Shown here: positions 361 to 18,826 of the stretch, piece after piece
Position numbering within the stretch: the first letter of the stretch is position 1
How the letters are laid out: each line of letters begins with the position of its first letter
Source: a virus
Strand: one strand, 5' to 3'
Virus record (IMG/VR): IMGVR_UViG_3300008470_000363
Span: 1-22,744 of that record
DNA length: 22,744 bases
Translations under genes and position numbers: made by a program
The notes under the pieces: generated by a model
Database searches by the model: none
What the model was told of the DNA's origin: nothing
What the model saw: only the letters and a program-made list of their open reading frames with translations

Positions 361-540
361 ATGAAAGCATATGAAGACATTGAAGAACGTGAGATAAAAA
401 GATTTAAAGCCGAATATAAACCTTTGACATGCCCAATTTGCGACATGCCGTTAACCCCGGTTATTCGTCCGAAAAGTACCAAGTGGCATTGCTCTGCTAT
501 TTTATGCTTTTACAACCACGTCGAAGTTGATGAAGATTAA
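361..540 (+). CDS. small zinc-ribbon-like hypothetical protein
   Basis: A 59-residue protein starting at ATG 361, chosen because AAAAGGAG lies just upstream (about 347-354) at good spacing. In-frame ATGs at 319 and 331/334 have no such site. It carries CPIC near residues 25-28 and a later pair, CSAILC, near residues 44-49. This two-CxxC/CxxxxC layout is typical of a zinc ribbon. The N-terminal third is highly charged and probably helical. The frame is open upstream to 229, so it may be the end of a longer protein of about 103 residues whose start at 225 is out of frame by one base. The TAA stop overlaps the stop of the convergent gene by 4 bases. Function unknown. Confidence 0.6.
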   Translation: MKAYEDIEEREIKRFKAEYKPLTCPICDMPLTPVIRPKSTKWHCSAILCFYNHVEVDED

Positions 541-1655
541 TTAATTGTGCAACCCGCTGAAATCGTTATTCCGGTTGATGTTGATGATCCAGCCCCAAAT
601 GTTATTGCGTAACCCGCAGAAGCATCACCAGCATCATCAATCGCAAATAAATACGCTATGCCCGGCTCAAAAGACCCTGTGTTGACTGCGAATGAGCCTG
701 TTGTTGTTGTCCACGCTGTAGCGTCTTGTATCTCTCTATGTGTACAGCTTTCCCAGTCTGCATTGTCACCAATAACAAACCTTGCGGGTGTGTAGGCTAT
801 GTAAATATCATCCATGTATATTAGGGCGCTATACGGCGTCGCATCACCGTTTGAAAACTCGTACCCAAAAACAGAGTATAGCCAGTCTTCACTTGTGGCG
901 TCATGGGTTTCACAGCTGGATTCGTTGAGAACAAGGGCTTGGTTGATCCAATTCTTATAACCCCCATCGGATTCCCCGAGAGCAGAGTTTTTTGTTATAG
1001 AGTAGTCCATTTTGCTCCACGCGTTTATCGTTGGAAACTCTCCAACAGTCTGAATAAATGCTGTGCACGCAGCCCGAGTTGCAGGAGTGCTTGTTATTCT
1101 AAAGCCTGTGCCACTTGTTGTCCATACCGGTGTGTTGGAATCATACCACAAGGATTGGGCAAACTGTGTTTCAGAGCTTACTTGATCTGCTGTCGGCCTC
1201 ATTCTCCACAACTTTAATTGCATAGAATCTTCGCCTGTTGTTTCTATTGCCGGTTTAAGCCAAAAAGAGACAAACATTGTCGTACTGTGAGGTATAGCCC
1301 CCTGTGAGTATGATATTCTCGATAGATAATGCTGTGTTACTGAATTTTCAAATTTTGCGACTACTGAATTATTACCGGAATGTGATTCCTCGTTACTATA
1401 CCTGACAGAATAAGCGATTGTAGTGTCAGTCGTCGTACTCCATGATGTTTCCGCAAATACATCACCAGGCGTACCCGCCTCGATATTGTCCTTTATAAAT
1501 TCATGGGTTAGCGGGTTTACTCCAAAAGCTAAGCCCGTTACATCCACGCTCTCCCCATCTGAGACAGTACCCGTAACGGTGCTTATTGTGGGCGCTGAGT
1601 GTGCGTCATTGAAGATTATAAATATCGACAATGCTATTAATATTATATTTTTCAA
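537..1655 (-). CDS. exported protein with IPT/TIG-like and jelly-roll-like regions
   Basis: A 372-residue protein that starts with TTG at 1655, preceded by GGTGAG at suitable spacing. The start overlaps the stop of the upstream gene (TTGA), so translation is probably coupled. Residues 1-20 form a classical signal peptide: MKN, a hydrophobic core, then cleavage after AHS before APT. Mature residues 21-45 (PTISTVTGTV...VTGLAFG) resemble the start of an IPT/TIG immunoglobulin-like fold. The middle (about 60-290), ending in YMDDIYIAYTP, looks like a concanavalin/LamG-type jelly roll. The C-terminal 80 residues, from ARFVIGDNADW to AGYAITFG, form a second beta domain of a type I recall from other phage-associated exported proteins. 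A carbohydrate-binding or adhesin role is inference. It is the last gene of the minus-strand block. Confidence 0.7.
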   Translation of the reverse strand: MKNIILIALSIFIIFNDAHSAPTISTVTGTVSDGESVDVTGLAFGVNPLTHEFIKDNIEAGTPGDVFAETSWSTTTDTTIAYSVRYSNEESHSGNNSVVAKFENSVTQHYLSRISYSQGAIPHSTTMFVSFWLKPAIETTGEDSMQLKLWRMRPTADQVSSETQFAQSLWYDSNTPVWTTSGTGFRITSTPATRAACTAFIQTVGEFPTINAWSKMDYSITKNSALGESDGGYKNWINQALVLNESSCETHDATSEDWLYSVFGYEFSNGDATPYSALIYMDDIYIAYTPARFVIGDNADWESCTHREIQDATAWTTTTGSFAVNTGSFEPGIAYLFAIDDAGDASAGYAITFGAGSSTSTGITISAGCTIN

Positions 1656-2194
1656 AATGGGCTCACCGCGCTATTAGTAAAAATTATAGACATATCGTCA
1701 CTTGTTAGGTTTGTACCTGGTATAGATACCGCTGTTGGTGGTACTACATACGTTTGCGCCTCATAATCTGTATTCCCGGTGCCTAAATTATCGTGGAATA
1801 TACTTCCGCCTCCGTCAGAATTTACGGAGCAATAATATGTTACAGCAGTCAGTACAACCTCAGTGTTTAGCGTCACGCTTTGGGCTCCTGCATCATTCGA
1901 CGCGGGCGTGACAGTCCCATACGCAAGCACGGCCCCCGTAGAACTAAATAAAGTTAGCTCTACCGCATCGCTACCATAGTTTTGCACCCATACATGCCCA
2001 TAATTAACGGCCCCTGGGTCGCCTGTAAATTCGCAGAAGGCTTGATGATCCGCCGCAATAGGGAAAGCAGCTGTATGTGTAGTTTGACCAACTGAACCGT
2101 CACCTACATCGGCACTTTCAACCCCACCAGAAGTAACCCCGGTATTCATCCAGGCAAAACCAATATCTGGCAAAATAAACAATAATAAACACAT
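1652..2194 (-). CDS. small exported beta-rich protein (start disrupted by an A7 frameshift)
   Basis: The in-frame ATG at 2194 gives 180 residues, but it lacks a ribosome binding site and the peptide begins directly inside a hydrophobic core. A better-placed ATG at 2213 overlaps the upstream TAA (TAATG), has GGAGG about 11 bases upstream, and is followed by seven A residues. Removing one A yields MKKLILMCLLLFILPDIGFA, a textbook signal peptide with cleavage after GFA. The mature part (about 165 residues) is rich in Thr, Val, Gly and Ser, contains three cysteines and is probably an all-beta domain. I do not recognise a family. It is flanked on both sides by genes for exported proteins and is likely translated with them. 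Confidence 0.6.
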   Translation of the reverse strand: MCLLLFILPDIGFAWMNTGVTSGGVESADVGDGSVGQTTHTAAFPIAADHQAFCEFTGDPGAVNYGHVWVQNYGSDAVELTLFSSTGAVLAYGTVTPASNDAGAQSVTLNTEVVLTAVTYYCSVNSDGGGSIFHDNLGTGNTDYEAQTYVVPPTAVSIPGTNLTSDDMSIIFTNSAVSPF

Positions 2195-2203
2195 TAAAAT
2201 AAG

Positions 2204-2213
2204 TTTTTTTCAT
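2204..2213 (-). other. A7 homopolymer frameshift at a start codon
   Basis: On the minus strand ATG (2213-2211) is followed by seven A residues (2210-2204) and then CTTATTTTAATG. As written the frame reads MKKTYFN and does not match the downstream 180-residue frame. With six A residues the two join into one signal-peptide-bearing protein. The cause could be a sequencing miscall, a natural phase-variable mutation, or transcriptional slippage on the A run. Confidence 0.6.
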
Positions 2214-5200
2214 TAGTCTGCCGCTCCTCCGTCAACGCATGTTTCAGTTTCATTAAAAACTGTCCACGTGTCGTCTGCTGTACACAATAATGTTACCTTG
2301 TTCCCTGCTGTTGCCGGTAAGTCAAGTTCGTAATCTGCGGTCATCACAGTCCCGATAAATAGTACAAAATGATCACCTGAAGCCGGTATAATTTCAAGCT
2401 TATTAGCTCCGCTTGTCCATATTGTAACAAAATCGCCTATGTTAACAGCTTCGCCATCCCACATTGTTATTTCGCAAGCAGCTGTAACGTGTACAACCCC
2501 GCCCCCATTGGTAGCGTATGTTAAGGTTTGCGCCGAAGAATAAGAGTTGAACACGGATTGGCCTTGTAAAGCTCCGGTTGTTCTCCAATTGCCTGTTAGG
2601 CTTGTAAAGTTTCCGTCTGCGTCTATACCATCCATTATTACTGCGTCGGTTGCTATTTCTGCTGAATCGATTGCGTCATCTGCCATACACCCATTGTCAA
2701 CAGTGTTATCAGGCAAGCCACCAACAGCCATACTAGTTATGCTCCCGGACGATAAATCCAGCCCATCTGTTGCAAGATTGATTATCCCAAAATCTACAGT
2801 ATCAAGTGCTGTTGTAGATGTCATCGTTAGCGTATTAGCCGTGAAAGTCAGAACCAAATCTTCCGAGTTTCCAACTAATTGAATTATTGTATTATCGGTT
2901 GTAATGTCATTTGTCGTTGATGCAAGATTTGATCCCAGCGAGCCAGAGCCGGTGCTATCATCTTCCCACGTAATGGTGCCACCAGTATTCCATTTTGCAA
3001 CCTGTCCATCTGTCGGCGTGTCTGAAGCTGTTGTTGCGACAAAATAAGCTGAAGCGGTGCCATTAAAAGCCTCATAAGCGTCATATCCTGAACCCCATCC
3101 ATCAGTATCAAGTGCAATTTCACCATCTGCGTCTGTTGTTGGGTCTGCTACAGCGGGAAGCGTTAAGAGGCCAGATAGTACCAATGGTTTTAACACGTCG
3201 ACAGTTTCCGTTACACCATCAACTTCAATAAAAGTTGTCTTGCTTCCGGCTACATCCACGCTGATACTACCAACAATATCTTGAGTTTCGGCAGACTCGA
3301 AAGATATTTCTCCAGTTCCGGCTGCATCGTCTTTATCTTCTGTTGTTATTTTGGGTGTCGAACTTGCCCCGGTTGTAAAACTTGTGGCCGTAAGCGCCGT
3401 GAAATCACCGTCGGCTGGTGTCATTGCTCCGACTGTCCCGTTAATCGGTCCTGCAAATCCTGCAACTGTTAACTCCCCAGTATTTGAATTATACGTAAAC
3501 TGTGAATCAGTTTTAACCCCAAGATTTCCAGTTGCAGCAGTCATGAACAAAGGGAAACATGTTGTATCTGCGCTTTCGTCTGCTGCTGTGACTGTTGTTG
3601 CTACCGCTGCTGTCCCTGTTATAGACCCGCCAATCGAGTTTGTGACGGTCATATCAGTGAACCAACCCTCAAGAACTCTCGTTCCAGTAAGTCCGATTTT
3701 CCCAGTAGTTGTTAAATTTTCATTATCAAATGTGATCTCACCTCCACCGGCCTTGATGACTAAATCTCCATCGTCGCCTGCCTGAGTTTCTAATGTTATT
3801 ACATTTGTAGTTGTTGAAATTTTCAGATAATCGTTTACGTCGCCTGAAGTCAAGAGGTGAATTGCACCCTCATCATTTTCAATCGTACCTTCACCAGCAT
3901 CTTTTTTTGCAATTGCCAGGTAATGGTTATCAGCATCAATCCAATTCGAGACCGGAGAGTTCCCAACACCATCATCAAAATTAGATGTTCCACTTACTTC
4001 CAGACCTGTTAATATTCCGAGGCTTGTAATATTTGCCTGCGCTGCTGCCGTGGTCGCTGTGTCGGGAGCTAACCCTGTTATTGTCCCAACTGTTGCCGAT
4101 TTAAGATTTGTGACCTCTGTTGTCGAAGCAACAACGAATGGAGCCGTACCGGTTGCCACGTCTGATGTAAATCCTAAAGCTGTTATTATATAAGCCCCTA
4201 CGTCCCATGCTGCTGTCAGGGGTATTGTACCGTCTGCGAGTAGATCGCCTGAGGCTGAAATCGTTTCTATCTTATCTCTTATCGCATTCTTCGTAGCAGA
4301 GTCAGTGTTGTTATCCCAAGACGTTGCATCATATGCTGTATCATTTGCTGGGTCATCTCCTGTATTGGCACCTTCTATAGAACTTGCACCAGCTGCTGAT
4401 GTTAGTATAGATGAATTGGCGACATTACCCGTTATCCCGACCGTACCAGTATCGACGGTTAGTGCTGTTGTTAATGTTGCGTTGGTAACTGTATCAGCGT
4501 TGCCGGTTAAAGCGCCAGTCACGTTGCCGGTCATCGTCCCCGACACGCAGAAATCACCATCAGCAGGGCTTGATACAATATTAATATTCCCAGTATAGCC
4601 ACCAGTTGCGATAATATCATCCATATGTGAATTAATAACACCAGCACCACTTTCAACAAAACTATAAGCGGTGCCACTGCCTGAACATTCAACGTGAATA
4701 TGATTCAGGGCGCTTCTAAACGAGCCAAGAAGAGCCAACCCGCCATAAGCGTCATTGTCTGCGCCATGCACATGTACAATATTATTAACAAACTCAGTAG
4801 ATACACTCGTTGCGGACCCTATATAAGTAATCCCTACAGTTGAAGTAGAGGTATCATCGTCAACATCGATATTGCACCCCTCCATAACAATATAGCCAGT
4901 TCCAGCAACAATACCTATTGTAGTAACGCTTGAGGAACCAGATCCATCTATATCAACAGTTTTTTGGTTGAAAACTTTTATAACCCCACCAGTACCAGCT
5001 TTAAAAGGCGCTTTGATCCCACTCGTTGTTGTCCCTGAATGTTCGTACTTTGTAGTTCCAAGATTAAAACCAAGGACACCAGCGCCACTTATATATCCAA
5101 CAAGCGGTTGATCTGCTTGGACTAAATTTTCAGAGCATGCCAATGAAGTTTTAGATAGCCTCACTTGAAAAGTACCGGTTGTTCCTTGAATAGCTGCAAT

Positions 5201-5938
5201 AGCTGTTGTAGGAGCTGATAAGGTTACAGATACGTTGCAAAGGGTGCCCCCTGTCGTGGACCCGAAATCAACTATATTAGCATCAGCTTGCGTCAATATC
5301 GTGTTCGCCGGATTACCCATGCCAATAATGGATAGATTGTTCACGGCGTATGTAATAGTATCCGTATAGGTGCCTGGATATAACAAAATGGTATCTCCGG
5401 CACTTGCCGCCGCCACTGCTGTAGAAAGGTCTGTGTAATCTCCACCGCCTGTGGCTACATGTATCGCATTCGCTGGTATTCCAGCCTTTGTGCCTAGTTG
5501 TGTTTGTATCGCACCTGTAACGCCTTTAACGTGAGCCAATTCAGTCAATGATGGGTATGTTGCTACGTCTAAAGATTGAAATGCCTTACTTCCATCAGTG
5601 GCTACTATCTCGGAGGCGGTTAGGGCATCGACTATTGGCGCATTTGTGAGTTGGAGATCATCAAGCCAACCCTTTAACCACCTAACACCAGTGCTGCCGA
5701 GTGAATCAGTTCCGTCTGTATCAGATATTAAATCTGTATTGATCGCTGTTGTGCCTAAGTTGTCTAATTCTTCAGTAGCATTTGCGTCAATATTCGTCTG
5801 CAAATCTGAATTATTGAGCGTTTCTTTGGCCCATGCTTCGTTTCTTGTGTCCCCGCTAACAACGGCTACTTGAGCAGCAAAAGAGTAGTTGCTTGAAAAC
5901 ACTGTTAAAATTACAAAAACAATTACCTTTTTCATCAT
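2213..5938 (-). CDS. large exported tail-fibre-like protein with beta-helix domain
   Basis: A 1241-residue protein. ATG 5938 is chosen because GGAG lies five bases upstream and it makes an ATGA overlap with the small gene before it; a TTG further upstream would place 18 residues before the signal peptide. Residues 1-21 form a Sec signal peptide (MMKKVIV..., cleavage after SFA). Residues about 155-460 look like a right-handed parallel beta-helix: GGGDYTDLSTAVAAASAGDT, LLYPGTYTDTI, then regular short strands, as in pectate-lyase-like phage spikes. The rest has low-complexity Thr/Ala/Gly fibre-type repeats such as ANITSLGILTGLEVSG and two PADGDF segments, plus a recurring TGxRxLxGW...TN motif near residues 84-100 and later. 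A compact beta domain ends in TCVDGGAAD. Binding or depolymerase roles are inferred; no catalytic residues could be assigned. Confidence 0.7.
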   Translation of the reverse strand: MMKKVIVFVILTVFSSNYSFAAQVAVVSGDTRNEAWAKETLNNSDLQTNIDANATEELDNLGTTAINTDLISDTDGTDSLGSTGVRWLKGWLDDLQLTNAPIVDALTASEIVATDGSKAFQSLDVATYPSLTELAHVKGVTGAIQTQLGTKAGIPANAIHVATGGGDYTDLSTAVAAASAGDTILLYPGTYTDTITYAVNNLSIIGMGNPANTILTQADANIVDFGSTTGGTLCNVSVTLSAPTTAIAAIQGTTGTFQVRLSKTSLACSENLVQADQPLVGYISGAGVLGFNLGTTKYEHSGTTTSGIKAPFKAGTGGVIKVFNQKTVDIDGSGSSSVTTIGIVAGTGYIVMEGCNIDVDDDTSTSTVGITYIGSATSVSTEFVNNIVHVHGADNDAYGGLALLGSFRSALNHIHVECSGSGTAYSFVESGAGVINSHMDDIIATGGYTGNINIVSSPADGDFCVSGTMTGNVTGALTGNADTVTNATLTTALTVDTGTVGITGNVANSSILTSAAGASSIEGANTGDDPANDTAYDATSWDNNTDSATKNAIRDKIETISASGDLLADGTIPLTAAWDVGAYIITALGFTSDVATGTAPFVVASTTEVTNLKSATVGTITGLAPDTATTAAAQANITSLGILTGLEVSGTSNFDDGVGNSPVSNWIDADNHYLAIAKKDAGEGTIENDEGAIHLLTSGDVNDYLKISTTTNVITLETQAGDDGDLVIKAGGGEITFDNENLTTTGKIGLTGTRVLEGWFTDMTVTNSIGGSITGTAAVATTVTAADESADTTCFPLFMTAATGNLGVKTDSQFTYNSNTGELTVAGFAGPINGTVGAMTPADGDFTALTATSFTTGASSTPKITTEDKDDAAGTGEISFESAETQDIVGSISVDVAGSKTTFIEVDGVTETVDVLKPLVLSGLLTLPAVADPTTDADGEIALDTDGWGSGYDAYEAFNGTASAYFVATTASDTPTDGQVAKWNTGGTITWEDDSTGSGSLGSNLASTTNDITTDNTIIQLVGNSEDLVLTFTANTLTMTSTTALDTVDFGIINLATDGLDLSSGSITSMAVGGLPDNTVDNGCMADDAIDSAEIATDAVIMDGIDADGNFTSLTGNWRTTGALQGQSVFNSYSSAQTLTYATNGGGVVHVTAACEITMWDGEAVNIGDFVTIWTSGANKLEIIPASGDHFVLFIGTVMTADYELDLPATAGNKVTLLCTADDTWTVFNETETCVDGGAAD

Positions 5939-6114
5939 GGTATCTCCGTTGTGTATGTTTTGTCCCAATCCGTTCCATATGCCGTATCCCAATCTGCTGT
6001 ATCATCGTAAGTAGTGTCCCAGTACGTGCCGCCACTCGAACCAATTAATGATAAAGCAACCTTTTTTAGTTCTATCTTTTTTAATTCTATTTTTTCAAGG
6101 CTTAACTTTTGCAA
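5935..6114 (-). CDS. 59-residue W/D/Y-rich small protein
   Basis: A short gene starting with TTG at 6114, preceded by an AAGGGGGG purine run at about seven bases, and ending in TGA at 5937-5935 that overlaps the ATG of the fibre-like gene (ATGA). The first 20 residues form a Leu/Ile/Lys heptad-like helix (LEKIELKKIELKKV). The rest is a repeat of aromatic and acidic residues: YWDTTYDD, DWDTAYG, DWDKTY. The WDTAYG motif also occurs in repeats of phage tail fibres (from memory). The tight coupling suggests a role with the following protein, for example as a trimerisation or chaperone-like partner; this is inference. It is short and easily missed by gene callers. Two eight-base T runs lie just upstream at 6127-6134 and 6145-6152. 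Confidence 0.6.
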   Translation of the reverse strand: MQKLSLEKIELKKIELKKVALSLIGSSGGTYWDTTYDDTADWDTAYGTDWDKTYTTEIP

Positions 6115-6169
6115 TTGCTACCCCCCTTTTTTTTAACGTAACACTTTTTTTTATATTACTCAATTCATA

Positions 6170-8359
6170 CTACCTCTCATAGGCATATTTCGAAAAATAA
6201 GACCCCCCAACATTGAACCGTATTAAATAATCACCGGCAGCGTTTATATGGTAGAAAAATTCCCCGCTATTAGCTATTAATCCATCATTTGTTGTGGCTC
6301 CTGATTCCATAACGCCGAGGCCGGTGTGTACCTCAAACCCTTCTACCATCTCGATATTGTGGTCGCCGTTGCGGAATTTAATATAGTCGTCTGTTCCTGC
6401 CGCGTCTGATGCGCTTACTGTTATAATGGCCTTTACTGTGCTGCTTTGCGTAGCTGACATTGTTGCTTGGAAATCTGTGGCCGGGTCTGAAGCGCATTGT
6501 ATTTGTGCGCTTGATGTTGAATCATCGTAAGCAAGGAGTGTGCAACTATCTTTAGATATTGCTTGAATGCCGTAAAACGGTGTTGTTGTGCTGCCAATTC
6601 TAAATGCTTTCCCCGTAGACGCTGGTATTATGCTTACAGTCGGCAGAACAGGGGAACCAGTCCCACCAGCATCCGCAAAGATAGATGCCACTTTTGTACC
6701 GGACCGATTAAAAATGACTTCGCCAGGATCTGTTGCCGTTGAGTCAAGCGTTATGTCTGCACCATCTGCGATAGATACAGTTGCTCCATCTGCAACAAGA
6801 ACACCCGGCCCGTCTACAACAGGGACAACATTTATAACCGGCGCTATTATTGGGCTTGCATCAGCAACGAGTGTGACAGCTGCCGGACTATAATCAGTCA
6901 AATCACCTATCGCTGCCGAATACGCATCAAGAGAAAATTCAAACTTCAGATCAGGCATAATTGTAATCTGATCGACGTAAACATTCGGGTATGATTCGTA
7001 TAAATCGTCTAATATAGATAATCTGTCCCCTAAGTACGGTTCAATCATCGAGTGATTTGACGAAAAGCTAACGGTCCCGGTTTGCAAAAATTTCCTGCGA
7101 AAATTTACAATTGCAAGTTTCTGAATTATTTGGGTGTTCGTCGTATACTTGTACAATACTTTTTCCGCTGAAATATTCGTGTAACTTGAGCCATCTATAG
7201 CAACACCTATTTCAGACGGCACACCATCTTGAATTCCAGGGTAATAAGTAGCATATCCACCGTCAAAACTTTCTTTATATATTTTTTCTGCAAAATTTAA
7301 ATTTAAAATATTATTCCGGTTAATTTCTTTAACTGCCGCACCGCCTTCAAGAACTATTAGCTGCACGACATCTGAACGTGGCATAATACAATTGCAAGAT
7401 TCCAGTAGTTCGCATAATACCTTTAAGGCGTCCTCTTTCGTCGTGAAGCAATAATTATATGTTATCCCAAGGGTTGCCAGTGCTGTTTTTGCGCTTGCGA
7501 AAGTCCCGGCTGAGTCTATTTGTGCAGATGGCACACCTATATCCTCCAAGATTGTTTCAATAATATCTGCGGGGCTTGTAACCGCCGATGTAGCTGAATT
7601 TGAAAATTTTGTGGGTAAATCATACAGTTTGCCTGACTGCCCGAATGGGGCGTTGACTCCATTTTGCCCTATATCGTTCTCAAAAACACGTAAACTTGTA
7701 ATCGTTGACTGAGTGAATGTGTATGTTGCGGTGCCGTACGTAGACGTGTTATTAGCAAATTCTACAGGGCTTGCAATCTCTGTTATCGTGTATGTGCCGA
7801 CTACAGCACCTAATACAGCATACCACTCATTAGCATCAGGGATCATGCGTAATTGGGGGTAGGCTGTCCCGAAAACTTTAGGAATTACAGCATTGTCAGG
7901 CCCATCCATAACAGCAGTTGTGTCGTTATAGCTATTTAACAAGGCTGTGTCTGGGTAATAATTTTGAAATAAATATTGTTGCAAAAAATCTTCGCACGTA
8001 AAGTTAAATTTCCCATATTCGTAGTGACATGATTTTACAGAAAATAACCAGGAATACACCTTCACTCCAGAATTAAGCAACGTAATTAGAACATCCTCAC
8101 CTTTGAACCCCGGCGCTGAAAAATCTCCTTTGCTGCCAGAAACGGAAAACTCTGTTGTGTTAGGCGGTATTAATTTATCAGCGCAACGTGTATTTTTTTC
8201 TTTTATCCCCGTAAAAGATTCACTGATAATTTTCGAGGTGTAAGTGTCAGAATCATATGTTATATCATTTCCAAAAGTCCAATAGTTACTATCAACCTCG
8301 AAAATCCACTGCGCTGTTATATTGCTTAGCGCCGCAACTGCTGAAAGTCCTGATCTCAT
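6170..8359 (-). CDS. tail hub / tail-tip protein
   Basis: A 729-residue protein. Its ATG at 8359 overlaps the preceding stop (ATGA). Position after the tape measure and the two Dit-like genes is where siphophages encode the tail hub that links the tail tip to fibres. The N-terminal part (about 1-480) contains a segment with AVIPKVFGTAYPQLR near residue 157-171, similar in style to conserved tail proteins of this position, and ends in repeated beta segments (YLGDRLSILDDLYESYPNVYVDQITI). A Val/Ala/Asp-rich linker near 500-540 (VLVADGATVSIADGADITLD) leads to a distinct C-terminal fibre or collar-like beta region (about 560-729). The hub role is inferred from order and length; no peptidoglycan hydrolase motif was seen. 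The end is followed by about 55 bases before the W/D-rich gene. Confidence 0.6.
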   Translation of the reverse strand: MRSGLSAVAALSNITAQWIFEVDSNYWTFGNDITYDSDTYTSKIISESFTGIKEKNTRCADKLIPPNTTEFSVSGSKGDFSAPGFKGEDVLITLLNSGVKVYSWLFSVKSCHYEYGKFNFTCEDFLQQYLFQNYYPDTALLNSYNDTTAVMDGPDNAVIPKVFGTAYPQLRMIPDANEWYAVLGAVVGTYTITEIASPVEFANNTSTYGTATYTFTQSTITSLRVFENDIGQNGVNAPFGQSGKLYDLPTKFSNSATSAVTSPADIIETILEDIGVPSAQIDSAGTFASAKTALATLGITYNYCFTTKEDALKVLCELLESCNCIMPRSDVVQLIVLEGGAAVKEINRNNILNLNFAEKIYKESFDGGYATYYPGIQDGVPSEIGVAIDGSSYTNISAEKVLYKYTTNTQIIQKLAIVNFRRKFLQTGTVSFSSNHSMIEPYLGDRLSILDDLYESYPNVYVDQITIMPDLKFEFSLDAYSAAIGDLTDYSPAAVTLVADASPIIAPVINVVPVVDGPGVLVADGATVSIADGADITLDSTATDPGEVIFNRSGTKVASIFADAGGTGSPVLPTVSIIPASTGKAFRIGSTTTPFYGIQAISKDSCTLLAYDDSTSSAQIQCASDPATDFQATMSATQSSTVKAIITVSASDAAGTDDYIKFRNGDHNIEMVEGFEVHTGLGVMESGATTNDGLIANSGEFFYHINAAGDYLIRFNVGGSYFSKYAYER

Positions 8360-8564: not shown

Positions 8565-9557
8565 TTAATACGTTACTGTGCAACCAGCATCCTTTATGCC
8601 ATCTGCGGCATAAGCTCCTGTTCCTTCTATTTTTGCTATCGCGTCGGAAGTTAGTCCGTTATTATCTTCTAATCCTATTACGCAAGAATTACCGCCTAAA
8701 GCTACACGGTTAGTGTAAAGGTCATCTACGCAACTTGATAAAGATGCTTCTGTTATATTACAGTCGTGCAAATATAACGCAGTTAGTGCCGTATTGGTGA
8801 TAACGTCTGGCGCAACTGTTATTAATGTGTCGGATAAATTTAAATGAGTTAGCGCCGTATTAGTGCTAACGTCTGGCGCAACTGTTATTAATGTGCTGTA
8901 TAAATATAAATAAGTTAGCTCCGTGTATGACTTTATTTGGGATAGACTATTTATCGAATTGCCATTCAATAAAATCTGCGTAACCAATAAAGGATCATCT
9001 ACAATAATAATTGTTCGCCTTGTTGCAGAAGTAACAAAATCTTTTAGCGGTGGGTTGGCTAATAAGCTTTCTGTTCCATCTGAATATTTTGTTGTAAAAC
9101 TTGCCGTTCTAGCATATTCGAAATCAAGTGTCGAGCCTGACGAGACAACGGTTAATCCGGGAACGCCTAAGATTTTAGCGGTAAATGAAATATCATACCT
9201 ACCGTAACTCATGATTGTAGCGGTTTGAGTGTATTCGCTTATATTTTGAATGGTGAAGTATTCAAGTGTTTGCGGGTGTTGCCAAACGTATGAATTTACC
9301 ATGCCATAGGCCTTTGCAGGATTGTAATATAAGTCAGAAAGTGTATCTGCATCTGCTTGCGATACGCCGGTCCACCTTAAATTAACCGTTGAATCTGGCG
9401 TAGTTTTTAGGGTTACAATTTTCCCACTCCCACCATCGGTATCGTTAACTACCTGCTTATACGATCCCGGCATAGGAATATCATAATTAGCCGATTTGGT
9501 TAGATAAACGGTATAATAATCTGGAACTTCGACATTGAGATAATCTGTAAACGCCAT
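8565..9557 (-). CDS. tail-tip protein with Dit-like N-terminus and leucine-rich repeats
   Basis: 330 residues in two parts. Residues 1-131 are a paralogue of the N-terminus of the preceding gene product (86 of 131 positions identical by my alignment), including NYDIPMPGSYKQ, YNPAKAYGM, VWQHPQTL and TIMSYGRYD. This looks like the tail-docking part of a distal tail (Dit)-type or minor tail protein, inferred from position right after the tape measure. After a linker, residues about 190-285 contain four leucine-rich repeats of 22 residues (VTQILLNGNSIN, LTYLYLYSTLIT, LTHLNLSDTLIT, LTALYLHDCNIT), followed by a C-terminal cap ending GCTVTY. The repeats are encoded by near-identical 66-base units. 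Leucine-rich repeats suggest protein or glycan binding at the tail tip. Start ATG 9557 follows AGGTG at about nine bases. Confidence 0.7.
   Translation of the reverse strand: MAFTDYLNVEVPDYYTVYLTKSANYDIPMPGSYKQVVNDTDGGSGKIVTLKTTPDSTVNLRWTGVSQADADTLSDLYYNPAKAYGMVNSYVWQHPQTLEYFTIQNISEYTQTATIMSYGRYDISFTAKILGVPGLTVVSSGSTLDFEYARTASFTTKYSDGTESLLANPPLKDFVTSATRRTIIIVDDPLLVTQILLNGNSINSLSQIKSYTELTYLYLYSTLITVAPDVSTNTALTHLNLSDTLITVAPDVITNTALTALYLHDCNITEASLSSCVDDLYTNRVALGGNSCVIGLEDNNGLTSDAIAKIEGTGAYAADGIKDAGCTVTY
8781..8930 (-). repeat. 66-base tandem repeat encoding leucine-rich repeats
   Basis: Units begin at 8781 and 8847, with a third partial copy from 8913, all beginning AGTTAG(T/C)(G/T)CC on the plus strand. 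The core GTCTGGCGCAACTGTTATTA is identical in the first two. The period of 66 bases equals 22 codons, matching the leucine-rich repeat length. The near identity points to recent duplication. Confidence 0.75.
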
Positions 9558-9568
9558 TACTTTGACAC

Positions 9569-11044
9569 CTATTCTATTAAAAAAGTTTTTACGAAGCCAT
9601 CGCTATCAGCGCCAGTGTAGGCAAGCATAAATCGTGTGGCCCCTACTAATACCAGAGAGTTATACGTTCCGTTTACTGTATCATGTTCTAATACGTCAAT
9701 TTCTGTTATATTGTCATAGTTCCCATCAATAGAGAAAGTCCCAATAAATCCATCGTCATTTCCGTCACTATATGCTAACGCTAAATGTGTTGAATTGATC
9801 AACACTAATGAGCTATAAGCGCCAAGGCCAGCTGGATTGGGTGTTACATCGTAGGAGTCAATTTCTGTTATATTGTCGTACGCTCCGTCTATAGAAAAAG
9901 TCTTAATGCGCCCAATCGCCCCAAATGATTGATAAGCTAACGCAAAATGGGTGGCGTCAATCAACACTAAAGAGTAATAATTCCCCACAGCCCCGCTATG
10001 GCTTAGCATATCAATGTCTGTTATATCGTAGCCACTATCGAGCACAAGAGTTTTAATTCTGGAACTTGTTGCCCCCAAATATGCAAATATGTAATGTGTG
10101 GCATCAATTTTTACCAGAGAGGGTTTGTTTCCGCCGTATGTTTCGTGATTATGCACATGTAGCTGAGTTATATTGTCGTAAGATCCGTCTATAGAAAATG
10201 TTTTTATATACCCTTTAGTTGCCGTGACATCCCAATATGCCAGAATGAGATGAGTTGAATCTACTAAAACAAGTGACGATGATCTACAATTTGAAGTATC
10301 GTGTTCTAATACGTCAATTTCTGTTATATTGTCATAGTTCCCGTCTATAGAAAATGTTTTTATATATCCATCCGCACCGTCACCAGTATAGGCAAGAATA
10401 AAATGCGTTGGGTCTATCATGACCAGAGAATTTTCGACTGCGTAACCTGTATCATGTTCTAATACGTCAATTTCTGTTATATTGTCATAGTTCCCGTCTA
10501 TAGAAAATGTTTTTATGTATCCGTCGCTACCATCCCCAGTATAAGCTAATATAAAATGCGTTGGGTCTATCATCACGAGGGAACTGTATTGACCGGTTGC
10601 TGGGTCATGCTCAAGAACTCCAATCTCGGATATAATAAAATCATTAAAGGTGCCTAAAATTTTGAAGCTAAAAGAAACATCATACCTACCGTAACTCATG
10701 ATTGTAGCGGTTGAATTAAACGCGCTTACATTCTGCACCGAATAAAGAGCAAGTGTTTGCGGGTGCTGCCAAACATATGACCGGCCCATACCGTAGGCCT
10801 TTGCAGGATTGTAATAATAGTCAGATAATATATCATGCTCAGATTGTGTTAAACCTGTAAATTTAATTGTCGCAACTGCATTAGGCGTAGTTTTAAGCGT
10901 GGAAACATCCCTACTCCCACCATAGGTATCGTTAACTATCTGCTTATACGATCCCGGCATAGGAATATCATAATTAGCCGATTGAGTGAGATAAACGTCA
11001 CTATAATCCGCAGATGCAATTTCAAGATAGTCTATAAATGCCAT
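9569..11044 (-). CDS. tail-tip protein with Dit-like N-terminus and seven-repeat beta-propeller
   Basis: 491 residues. ATG 11044 shares one base with the tape measure stop (TGATG). Residues 1-131 are the same docking domain as in the next gene. Residues about 137-491 contain seven units of 49-54 residues, with SLV at residues 155, 206, 257, 309, 358, 412 and 463. Each unit has the pattern SLVxIDxTHFxLAYxGxxxDGYIKTFSIDG, then a YDNITEIDVLEHD strand. That is four strands per unit and seven units. The first unit is preceded by a lone ISEIGVLEHD strand (138-147) while the last lacks its equivalent, which is the circular closure expected of a seven-bladed beta-propeller. The fold is inferred from the pattern. 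A receptor- or glycan-binding role is likely but not shown. Confidence 0.75.
   Translation of the reverse strand: MAFIDYLEIASADYSDVYLTQSANYDIPMPGSYKQIVNDTYGGSRDVSTLKTTPNAVATIKFTGLTQSEHDILSDYYYNPAKAYGMGRSYVWQHPQTLALYSVQNVSAFNSTATIMSYGRYDVSFSFKILGTFNDFIISEIGVLEHDPATGQYSSLVMIDPTHFILAYTGDGSDGYIKTFSIDGNYDNITEIDVLEHDTGYAVENSLVMIDPTHFILAYTGDGADGYIKTFSIDGNYDNITEIDVLEHDTSNCRSSSLVLVDSTHLILAYWDVTATKGYIKTFSIDGSYDNITQLHVHNHETYGGNKPSLVKIDATHYIFAYLGATSSRIKTLVLDSGYDITDIDMLSHSGAVGNYYSLVLIDATHFALAYQSFGAIGRIKTFSIDGAYDNITEIDSYDVTPNPAGLGAYSSLVLINSTHLALAYSDGNDDGFIGTFSIDGNYDNITEIDVLEHDTVNGTYNSLVLVGATRFMLAYTGADSDGFVKTFLIE
9572..10636 (-). repeat. seven tandem propeller-blade repeats (about 150 bases each)
   Basis: Seven coding repeats of about 147-162 bases. 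Several stretches are almost identical between copies, for example the plus-strand TCAATTTCTGTTATATTGTC, seen near 9688, 9859, 10314 and 10468. Conservation at the DNA level indicates recent amplification or ongoing recombination between blades. Confidence 0.75.
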
Positions 11045-17907: not shown

Positions 17908-18351
17908 CTAAACAGCACCTTCAATCGGCTCTACATGTAGCTCACCAGTTACGCCAGTGGCGTGTGAAGTCGGTTTTGTTCTCGGATTATATTGGATATA
18001 TGTAGCACTCGCAACAACCGCGTTCTGAGTAGCTCTTGGGACAACGAGCCTGACATATCGCTCAATCGGCTTAATAAGATCAATGTAAAATGTCTCATTG
18101 TCGTCATCGTCTGCGATCGTCTGACCAGTACCGAGCAGGTTTTCAGCACTTGAAAAACTATCAGAGCTTTGCTGGGCCTTGATTGATGTTACAGCACTCC
18201 CGGTAATAACACCGAAAGTAACAATCATGAGGACGGATTCATAGTTTACCATGTCAAGGGTTGCGCCGTTTATTGTGGATGTTGCCGCAACTCCCGCACT
18301 AGGTAGAATCGCCCGAGTGATTTTACAGTTTTTAGATATATTGTTCTCCAT
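17908..18351 (-). CDS. putative head decoration protein, paralogue 2
   Basis: 147 residues, clearly paralogous to the gene just upstream. Shared blocks are LDM-x2-YESVL, LLGTxQTI, FYID(L)-x-KPIERYVRL, a YIQYNPRT block and GELHVEPIEG at the end. The N-terminal 30 residues differ (ENNISKNCKITRAILPS). The start at 18351 follows GAGGTGAAAAAAG, nearly the same leader as the first copy. The size, lack of motifs and place next to the capsid gene suggest a capsid-binding decoration or stabilising protein. I recall similar proteins with a GELHVSPxEG ending between capsid and connector genes of other phages, but their role is not established to my knowledge. The product ends in EGAV. Confidence 0.65.
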   Translation of the reverse strand: MENNISKNCKITRAILPSAGVAATSTINGATLDMVNYESVLMIVTFGVITGSAVTSIKAQQSSDSFSSAENLLGTGQTIADDDDNETFYIDLIKPIERYVRLVVPRATQNAVVASATYIQYNPRTKPTSHATGVTGELHVEPIEGAV

Positions 18352-18379: not shown

Positions 18380-18826
18380 TTAAGCTGTGCCCTCAATAGG
18401 TTCAACGTGTAGCTCACCGGAAACGCTTGTTCCCTGAGTTGTCGGATATGTACGCGGATTATACTGTATATACATCGCACTGTCCACGGTCGACGCCTGC
18501 GTTGCTCTACTTATGTACAACCTGACATACCTCTCTATTGGTTTCACAAGGTCGATGTAAAATACTGTGTTATCTGCTGTATCCACAATGGTTTGGCTTG
18601 TGCCTAACAGATCAGCCGCATCTGATACAGTATCGTCCGTGCCTGACTGCATCTTAATAGACGTTGCCGCCCCACTTGTTATAGCGCCCATTCTAATAAC
18701 AACTAAAACCGATTCATACTGGTCCATATCAAGAACAGCCCCCTCAATTGAAGCGGAGCCAGAAGCTCCATCGGTTGAGGCAACAGCCAAAGACATTGCA
18801 ACGCTACTCGACATATTATTATCCAT
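18380..18826 (-). CDS. putative head decoration protein, paralogue 1
   Basis: 148 residues. The start at ATG 18826 has GGTGA upstream and overlaps the end of the 71-residue gene by eight bases (stop at 18819). Likely beta-rich: YESVLVVIRMGAIT, NTVFYIDLVKPIERYVRLYI, AMYIQYNPRT. The last residues GELHVEPIEGTA match paralogue 2. The two copies are diverged (roughly half identical by eye), so the duplication is not recent, although the intergenic leaders remain alike. Candidate role: outer capsid decoration, from position and small size only. Confidence 0.65.
   Translation of the reverse strand: MDNNMSSSVAMSLAVASTDGASGSASIEGAVLDMDQYESVLVVIRMGAITSGAATSIKMQSGTDDTVSDAADLLGTSQTIVDTADNTVFYIDLVKPIERYVRLYISRATQASTVDSAMYIQYNPRTYPTTQGTSVSGELHVEPIEGTA

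Follow-up and report, generated by a model that had tools for sequence, protein, structure and literature searches.

Fibre genes in phage genomes are usually annotated as parts of the virion, and the locus described here raises the question of whether some of them encode proteins that leave the cytoplasm through the Sec pathway of the host. The window covers an entire IMG/VR virus record (22,744 bases), which may itself be a fragment. On its minus strand PHROGs matches identified, in this order, portal, protease, major head protein, connector, tail tube, chaperone and tape measure genes. The tape measure gene is followed by two paralogous tail proteins with differing ends, a 729-aa gene (6170–8359) that is a probable tail tip or hub gene by position only, a 59-aa ORF (5935–6114) that is charged and rich in W and D, and then genes A, B and C (all on the minus strand, as are the features within them). 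The stop codon of the 59-aa ORF overlaps the start of A (ATGA), and similar overlaps link A to B (TAATG) and B to C (TTGA), suggesting a single coupled late unit. To the left of these genes the window contains only two small ORFs, zinc-ribbon-like by eye.

Elsewhere on the same strand there are two pairs of neighbouring genes whose members resemble one another. The neighbouring paralogues after the tape measure gene (8565–9557 and 9569–11044) are 60% identical over their first 147 aa; one carries leucine-rich repeats at its end (PF12799, E 4e-7), the other several copies of a repeat with IDVLEHDT...IKTFSIDGNYDNITE, an arrangement that looks like a common tail-binding base with exchangeable adhesin ends. 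A tandem duplicate (17908–18351 and 18380–18826; 56% identical) lies after the major head protein gene, its first copy matching phrog_5707 (unknown function).

Signal peptides of genes A, B and C

The first-pass annotation had assigned Sec signal peptides (SP) to all three genes, which holds for A and C, and for B only on condition of a frame shift at seven consecutive A residues. Gene A (2213–5938), an open frame with homologues in four phage records (G001–G004), encodes a predicted exported, fibre-like protein of 1241 aa; GGAG lies five bases ahead of its ATG and the SP (MMKKVIVFVILTVFSSNYSFA/AQ; 5876–5938) scores 9.95 in a rule-based finder, with 26 of 20,000 shuffles as good. Gene C (537–1655), also an open frame, encodes a predicted exported protein of 372 aa without a family match, for which a single-sequence structure model reached a pLDDT of only 31. 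It starts with TTG, overlapping the TGA stop of B, and its SP (MKNIILIALSIFIIFNDAHS/AP; 1596–1655) scores 10.07, a value matched by 1 of 20,000 shuffles.

Gene B (1652–2213) encodes a small protein whose frame is broken after the start. Its ATG at 2213 overlaps the stop of A, with GGAGGA upstream, and as assembled the frame passes from this ATG through the seven-A run (2204–2210; an error or a possible slippage site) into another frame with an early stop. As the MKK start is reached only with a one-base frame change, the SP of B (MKKLILMCLLLFILPDIGFA/WM; 2153–2213) is conditional; in the frame-joined version its score is reached by 2 of 20,000 shuffles. In the sequence as given, the open frame of B begins only at an internal ATG (2194; 180 aa) and lacks a charged start. 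Assembly error, real decay and slippage are all possible causes of the break. A weak match of B to DUF4082 (PF13313; E 8.8e-5, 22.9 bits) falls under the Pfam cut-off of 28.4.

The finder works with a small set of simple rules (threshold 9; shuffles are of N-termini) and picks up Lom of lambda, OmpA, MalE and LamB, and PhoA only after one rule was loosened. A and C each have a charged n-region, a hydrophobic core, small residues at −3 and −1 and no lipobox Cys at +1. Lipoprotein signals were rejected for A, B and C because no Cys is present at the cleavage site, and Tat signals because the twin arginine is absent (by eye). None of the 16 other window genes reaches the threshold, the 729-aa gene also scoring below it; three of three against 0 of 16 corresponds to 1 in 969, a post hoc figure with B counted. 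Shuffled N-termini from six records passed in 13 of 11,250 cases. With the shuffle frequencies of A, B and C and no other window gene at threshold, chance is a poor explanation for the three signal peptides. Judged on their sequences, A, C and probably B are very likely late phage genes whose products would travel via host Sec and have a type I SP removed.

Mature SP proteins have no excess of Cys (11.6 versus 9.3 per 1000 in other genes of at least 200 aa; p about 0.14–0.18), and a disulphide argument for periplasmic life was dropped for this reason. In this test two start positions in G003 were coded out of both sets, and an SP-like gene of 92 aa away from the fibre module of G002 (25178–25456), which is included in the SP counts given below, was treated as an ‘other’ gene.

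Fold and relatives of the A protein

The earlier suggestion that A is a fibre with a beta-helix is borne out by an AlphaFold2 model, by its structural neighbours and by a domain common to other phages. The model contains a right-handed beta-helix at about residues 155–457 (4568–5476; mostly pLDDT 55–84), preceded by 155 N-terminal residues with pLDDT <50; A has no family match. In VIA the beta-helix gave Z scores of 19–22 to pectin methylesterases, an alginate lyase, the surface adhesin PfbA and phage tailspikes, the best being alginate lyase 6kfn (Z 22.1, rmsd 2.8, 264 aligned), with pectin methylesterase 1xg2_A (Z 21.3, rmsd 2.9, 240 aligned), PfbA (Z 20.9, rmsd 2.7, 270 aligned) and several tailspikes (Z about 19–20) below it. 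A profile search also found pectinesterase 1xg2_A (E 1.4e-4), while Foldseek alone gave no PDB match <E 0.001 and six matches in viral predictions. The central domain shares its fold with the tailspikes or fibres of Det7, HK620 and CBA120 (TSP2), virion proteins that are not known to carry an SP.

The beta-helix is present in four of the five phage records searched (G001–G004), with 54–60% identity in the matched stretch and 50–53% over a wider alignment. A C-terminal cap-like region (residues 1132–1225; 2264–2545), identified by a second G001 match (E 2e-5), is also common to A and the SP-less G001 fibre. From its predicted architecture A is a phage-type fibre, with beta-helix, fibre-like repeats and end cap, and an SP apparently takes the place of the N-terminal part by which fibres usually attach to the tail. 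Among 50,697 phage records A, B, C and the hub gene have no relatives, none of B or C was found in viral contigs, a pattern scan of GTDB genomes gave none for the beta-helix and tape measure, and a search for defence families gave none.

The fold neighbours raise the possibility that the beta-helix acts as a glycan-modifying enzyme (depolymerase, esterase or lyase), exported to condition the envelope or matrix of the host. Among these neighbours are pectin methylesterases and alginate lyases, and many His, Asp and Glu residues are invariant across the five aligned rows (50–53% identity). However, the pectin methylesterase fold is common to many other beta-helix families and a beta-helix is equally common among non-enzymatic adhesins, no catalytic motif was established, and in G001 the domain is part of a homologue without SP, making an enzymatic role highly improbable.

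Signal peptides at other fibre modules

Searching for the same arrangement in other phages, as the first-pass annotation had advised, showed that it recurs: SP groups, some of whose members are fibre- or adhesin-like, were found at the fibre modules of G002, G004 and L028, the last being a fragment from the tape measure search. Homologues of A in G002 and G003 have their N-terminus cut by the contig end. The start is present in two, L006 (in G004) with an SP and L002 (in G001) without, the latter starting as an ordinary fibre would. The L006 protein (1060 aa; GGAGGT ahead of the ATG) enters its beta-helix almost directly after the SP, and a tail-binding domain was not seen between them. Its C-terminal 437 aa match phrog_5302 (‘tail protein’, E 8e-79), a family to which A itself has no match, and in annotated phage tail proteins with this C-terminus an SP was found in none of seven (7 of 29 matched records). 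Portal and two small genes precede this gene, the sole fibre candidate in a 14-kb fragment; two further SP genes (151 and 261 aa) lie downstream.

In G002, SP genes of 227 and 430 aa are found downstream of the fibre and one of 972 aa further on. The last has a Pfam Beta_helix match (E 3.7e-19) and a tail spike match (phrog_2234, E 1.4e-7) and a C-terminus in which basic residues come after a hydrophobic stretch, as would be expected if the protein were exported and anchored in the membrane. Both closing genes of the L028 fragment (337 and 196+ aa) bear SPs. The alignment of its 337-aa protein with the 972-aa one of G002 (30% over 148 residues, E 1e-5) takes in the SP and continues beyond it into the mature protein, as though signal and module had travelled as a unit. 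This alignment and the anchor-like topology both speak for real export. Ribosome-binding sites lie directly before the SP starts of A, the L006 fibre and its 151- and 261-aa neighbours, the 227-aa gene (L003) and the 972-aa gene. G003 offers weaker cases, below threshold and left out of the counts: a 107-aa gene scoring 8.5 and a 291-aa gene after the fibre (start MKRYLILLSLFIAFLTFMGA) with no score and an Lcl_C adhesin domain (E 1.4e-19).

Two other ideas about these genes were discarded. A host fragment or prophage boundary does not fit G002 and G004, which have phage genes (some identified by eye) on both sides of the SP genes. Lectin likeness of C, the 227-aa L003 protein and the 196-aa L028 protein, seen by eye, was not supported by family searches, which gave nothing, or by BLASTP pairs (C versus L003, E 0.18; L028 versus L003, E 0.025).

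The first-pass annotation reasoned that export would take these proteins out of assembly, but SP fibres could still belong to virions, as fibres matured outside the cytoplasm whose monomers are exported, fold and trimerise in the periplasm and join tails at lysis. Free P22 spikes can join particles extracellularly, both A and the L006 protein are built like complete fibres, the C-terminus of the latter belongs to a tail protein family, and its phage has, within the fragment, no second fibre candidate. Against this, the L006 SP is not followed by a visible tail-binding domain, the paralogues at 8565–11044 offer the window phage further candidate adhesins that lack an SP, and the predicted membrane anchor of the 972-aa G002 protein would hinder release. 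Such completion of virions after lysis seems unlikely, and is the main rival to the receptor masking proposed below, above all for L006.

The adhesin domain in G003 and the likeness of the A beta-helix to PfbA (VIA Z 20.9) would also suit proteins expressed from a prophage that make the host stick to surfaces or cells, as Lom or PblB, the latter providing a precedent. The genes, however, sit in a late tail operon, and promoter-like sites are no commoner than in shuffles. In none of six records searched (including the 62-kb G002; all may be fragments) did an integrase exceed the family cut-off, which speaks weakly against a prophage role. Lysogenic conversion is accordingly a rather improbable function here.

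Signal peptides as such are not more frequent in these records than in cultured phages: 11 of 306 gene models (B not counted) versus 8 of 272 in four cultured phages, where Lom and lysis proteins of the Rz type are among them but nothing annotated as a fibre. The SP genes here differ in size, kind and grouping, not in frequency. Records without SP genes at threshold are G001 (41 models), G003 (40), G005 (16), L027 (22), L029 (13) and L030 (25); fibre regions of G005 and L029 fall outside the count because these records, read as they are transcribed, stop at the tape measure gene or within it. L005 (on the same contig as L002) and L026 (a part-copy of L027, 99.98% identical by position) were dropped before counting. 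Within-record permutations gave as much grouping in 442 of 20,000 cases for genes up to two models apart and in 2,332 of 20,000 for adjacent genes only (B not counted in either), so that grouping moderately exceeds chance in this small sample, whose records are without exception uncultured and possibly incomplete.

These counts also bear on whether the signals function at all, rather than being hydrophobic starts, recombination relics of host genes for secreted proteins or N-terminal segments used in the virion. About 3% of genes in the four cultured phages also score as SP, and B is frame-broken. Nevertheless, two to three nearby SP genes with differing mature parts, most with start signals, are found in four records, and shuffle rates are low; non-functional signals deserve very little weight.

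Known systems and a possible role

The first-pass annotation had called the gene group possibly an undescribed export cassette, and ‘undescribed’ is too strong in view of Lom (lambda), Cor (T1), Llp (T5) and PblB. Lom, like A and C, is encoded by an SP-bearing gene beside tail genes (between J and stf; finder score 11.35), but is a 206-aa outer-membrane protein from a single gene, not a fibre. Cor and Llp are likewise exported and encoded beside tail or receptor-binding genes, cor adjoining tail genes on the T1 map. According to PMC9586334, Llp is an exported lipoprotein that is encoded just downstream of the receptor-binding protein and blocks the receptor from the periplasm. Both are small lipoproteins (Cor 75 aa), whereas the predicted cleavage sites of A, B and C lack Cys and A is 1241 aa long; none of the three is a small lipoprotein with a lipobox. 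The pneumococcal PblB is described in PMC4508584 as a fibre-type phage adhesin on the cell surface with a putative SP. PblA/PblB of streptococcal phages differ from the window genes in being Gram-positive and without a reported SP gene group, the likeness being one of description, and PblB of S. mitis arrives on the surface once lysis has permeabilised the cell.

In open-licence literature little was found on SP-bearing phage fibres beyond PblB, and no description of a large beta-helix fibre in a run of two to three SP genes. The passages of PMC5889276, PMC3517404, PMC5313236 and PMC3338817 that mention ‘signal peptide’ belong to methods or references only. The arrangement is a real, recurrent oddity, not yet amounting to a new kind of system.

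The reading preferred here, with a probability of roughly 0.55, is that A and its partners form an exported set of fibres and adhesins acting at the envelope. Given export, receptor masking is tentatively suggested as their function, by analogy with Llp and Cor. The fibre and its partners would accumulate in the periplasm during late expression and, upon leakage or lysis, reach cell surfaces and debris, where fibres would occupy the receptors or glycans recognised by the phage's own binding domains. Reinfection would be blocked and fewer progeny lost to debris, an effect similar to that of Llp or Cor. Masking is the most economical function because a shed or displayed fibre would first meet the receptors of its own cell and debris.

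As a broader and equally tentative proposal, a recurrent phage ‘export cassette’ may exist in diverse uncultured tailed phages, in which two to three late genes (coupled in the window) would send fibres and adhesins through Sec, a C-terminal helix anchoring some of them in the membrane; infected cells would thus wear or shed phage binding proteins. Fibre domains would then swap by recombination between SP-less, virion-bound and SP-bearing, exported forms. If some fibres are exported, part of the annotation of host-range proteins from environmental phages is wrong, and fibre-based receptor masking or cell-surface display, if true, is testable by fusion and adsorption assays. One beta-helix with and without SP across phages provides a natural comparison.

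Other genes of these records have features of their own. Relatives of the C-terminus of the L006 fibre (4732–7899) are found near a reverse transcriptase gene in Perkons and two crAss-like phages, and some phrog_5302 tail proteins, which resemble this C-terminus, occur in phages with reverse transcriptase. The L006 fibre may thus be an exported diversity-generating target; the 14-kb record showed no template repeat. The SP genes of G003 are followed by glycosyltransferase-, radical-SAM- and methyltransferase-like genes (L004, 4920–10362; by reading translations). In L003, a gene built of APISSVG.I...G.K-type repeats (3729–4670) is flanked by two SP genes.
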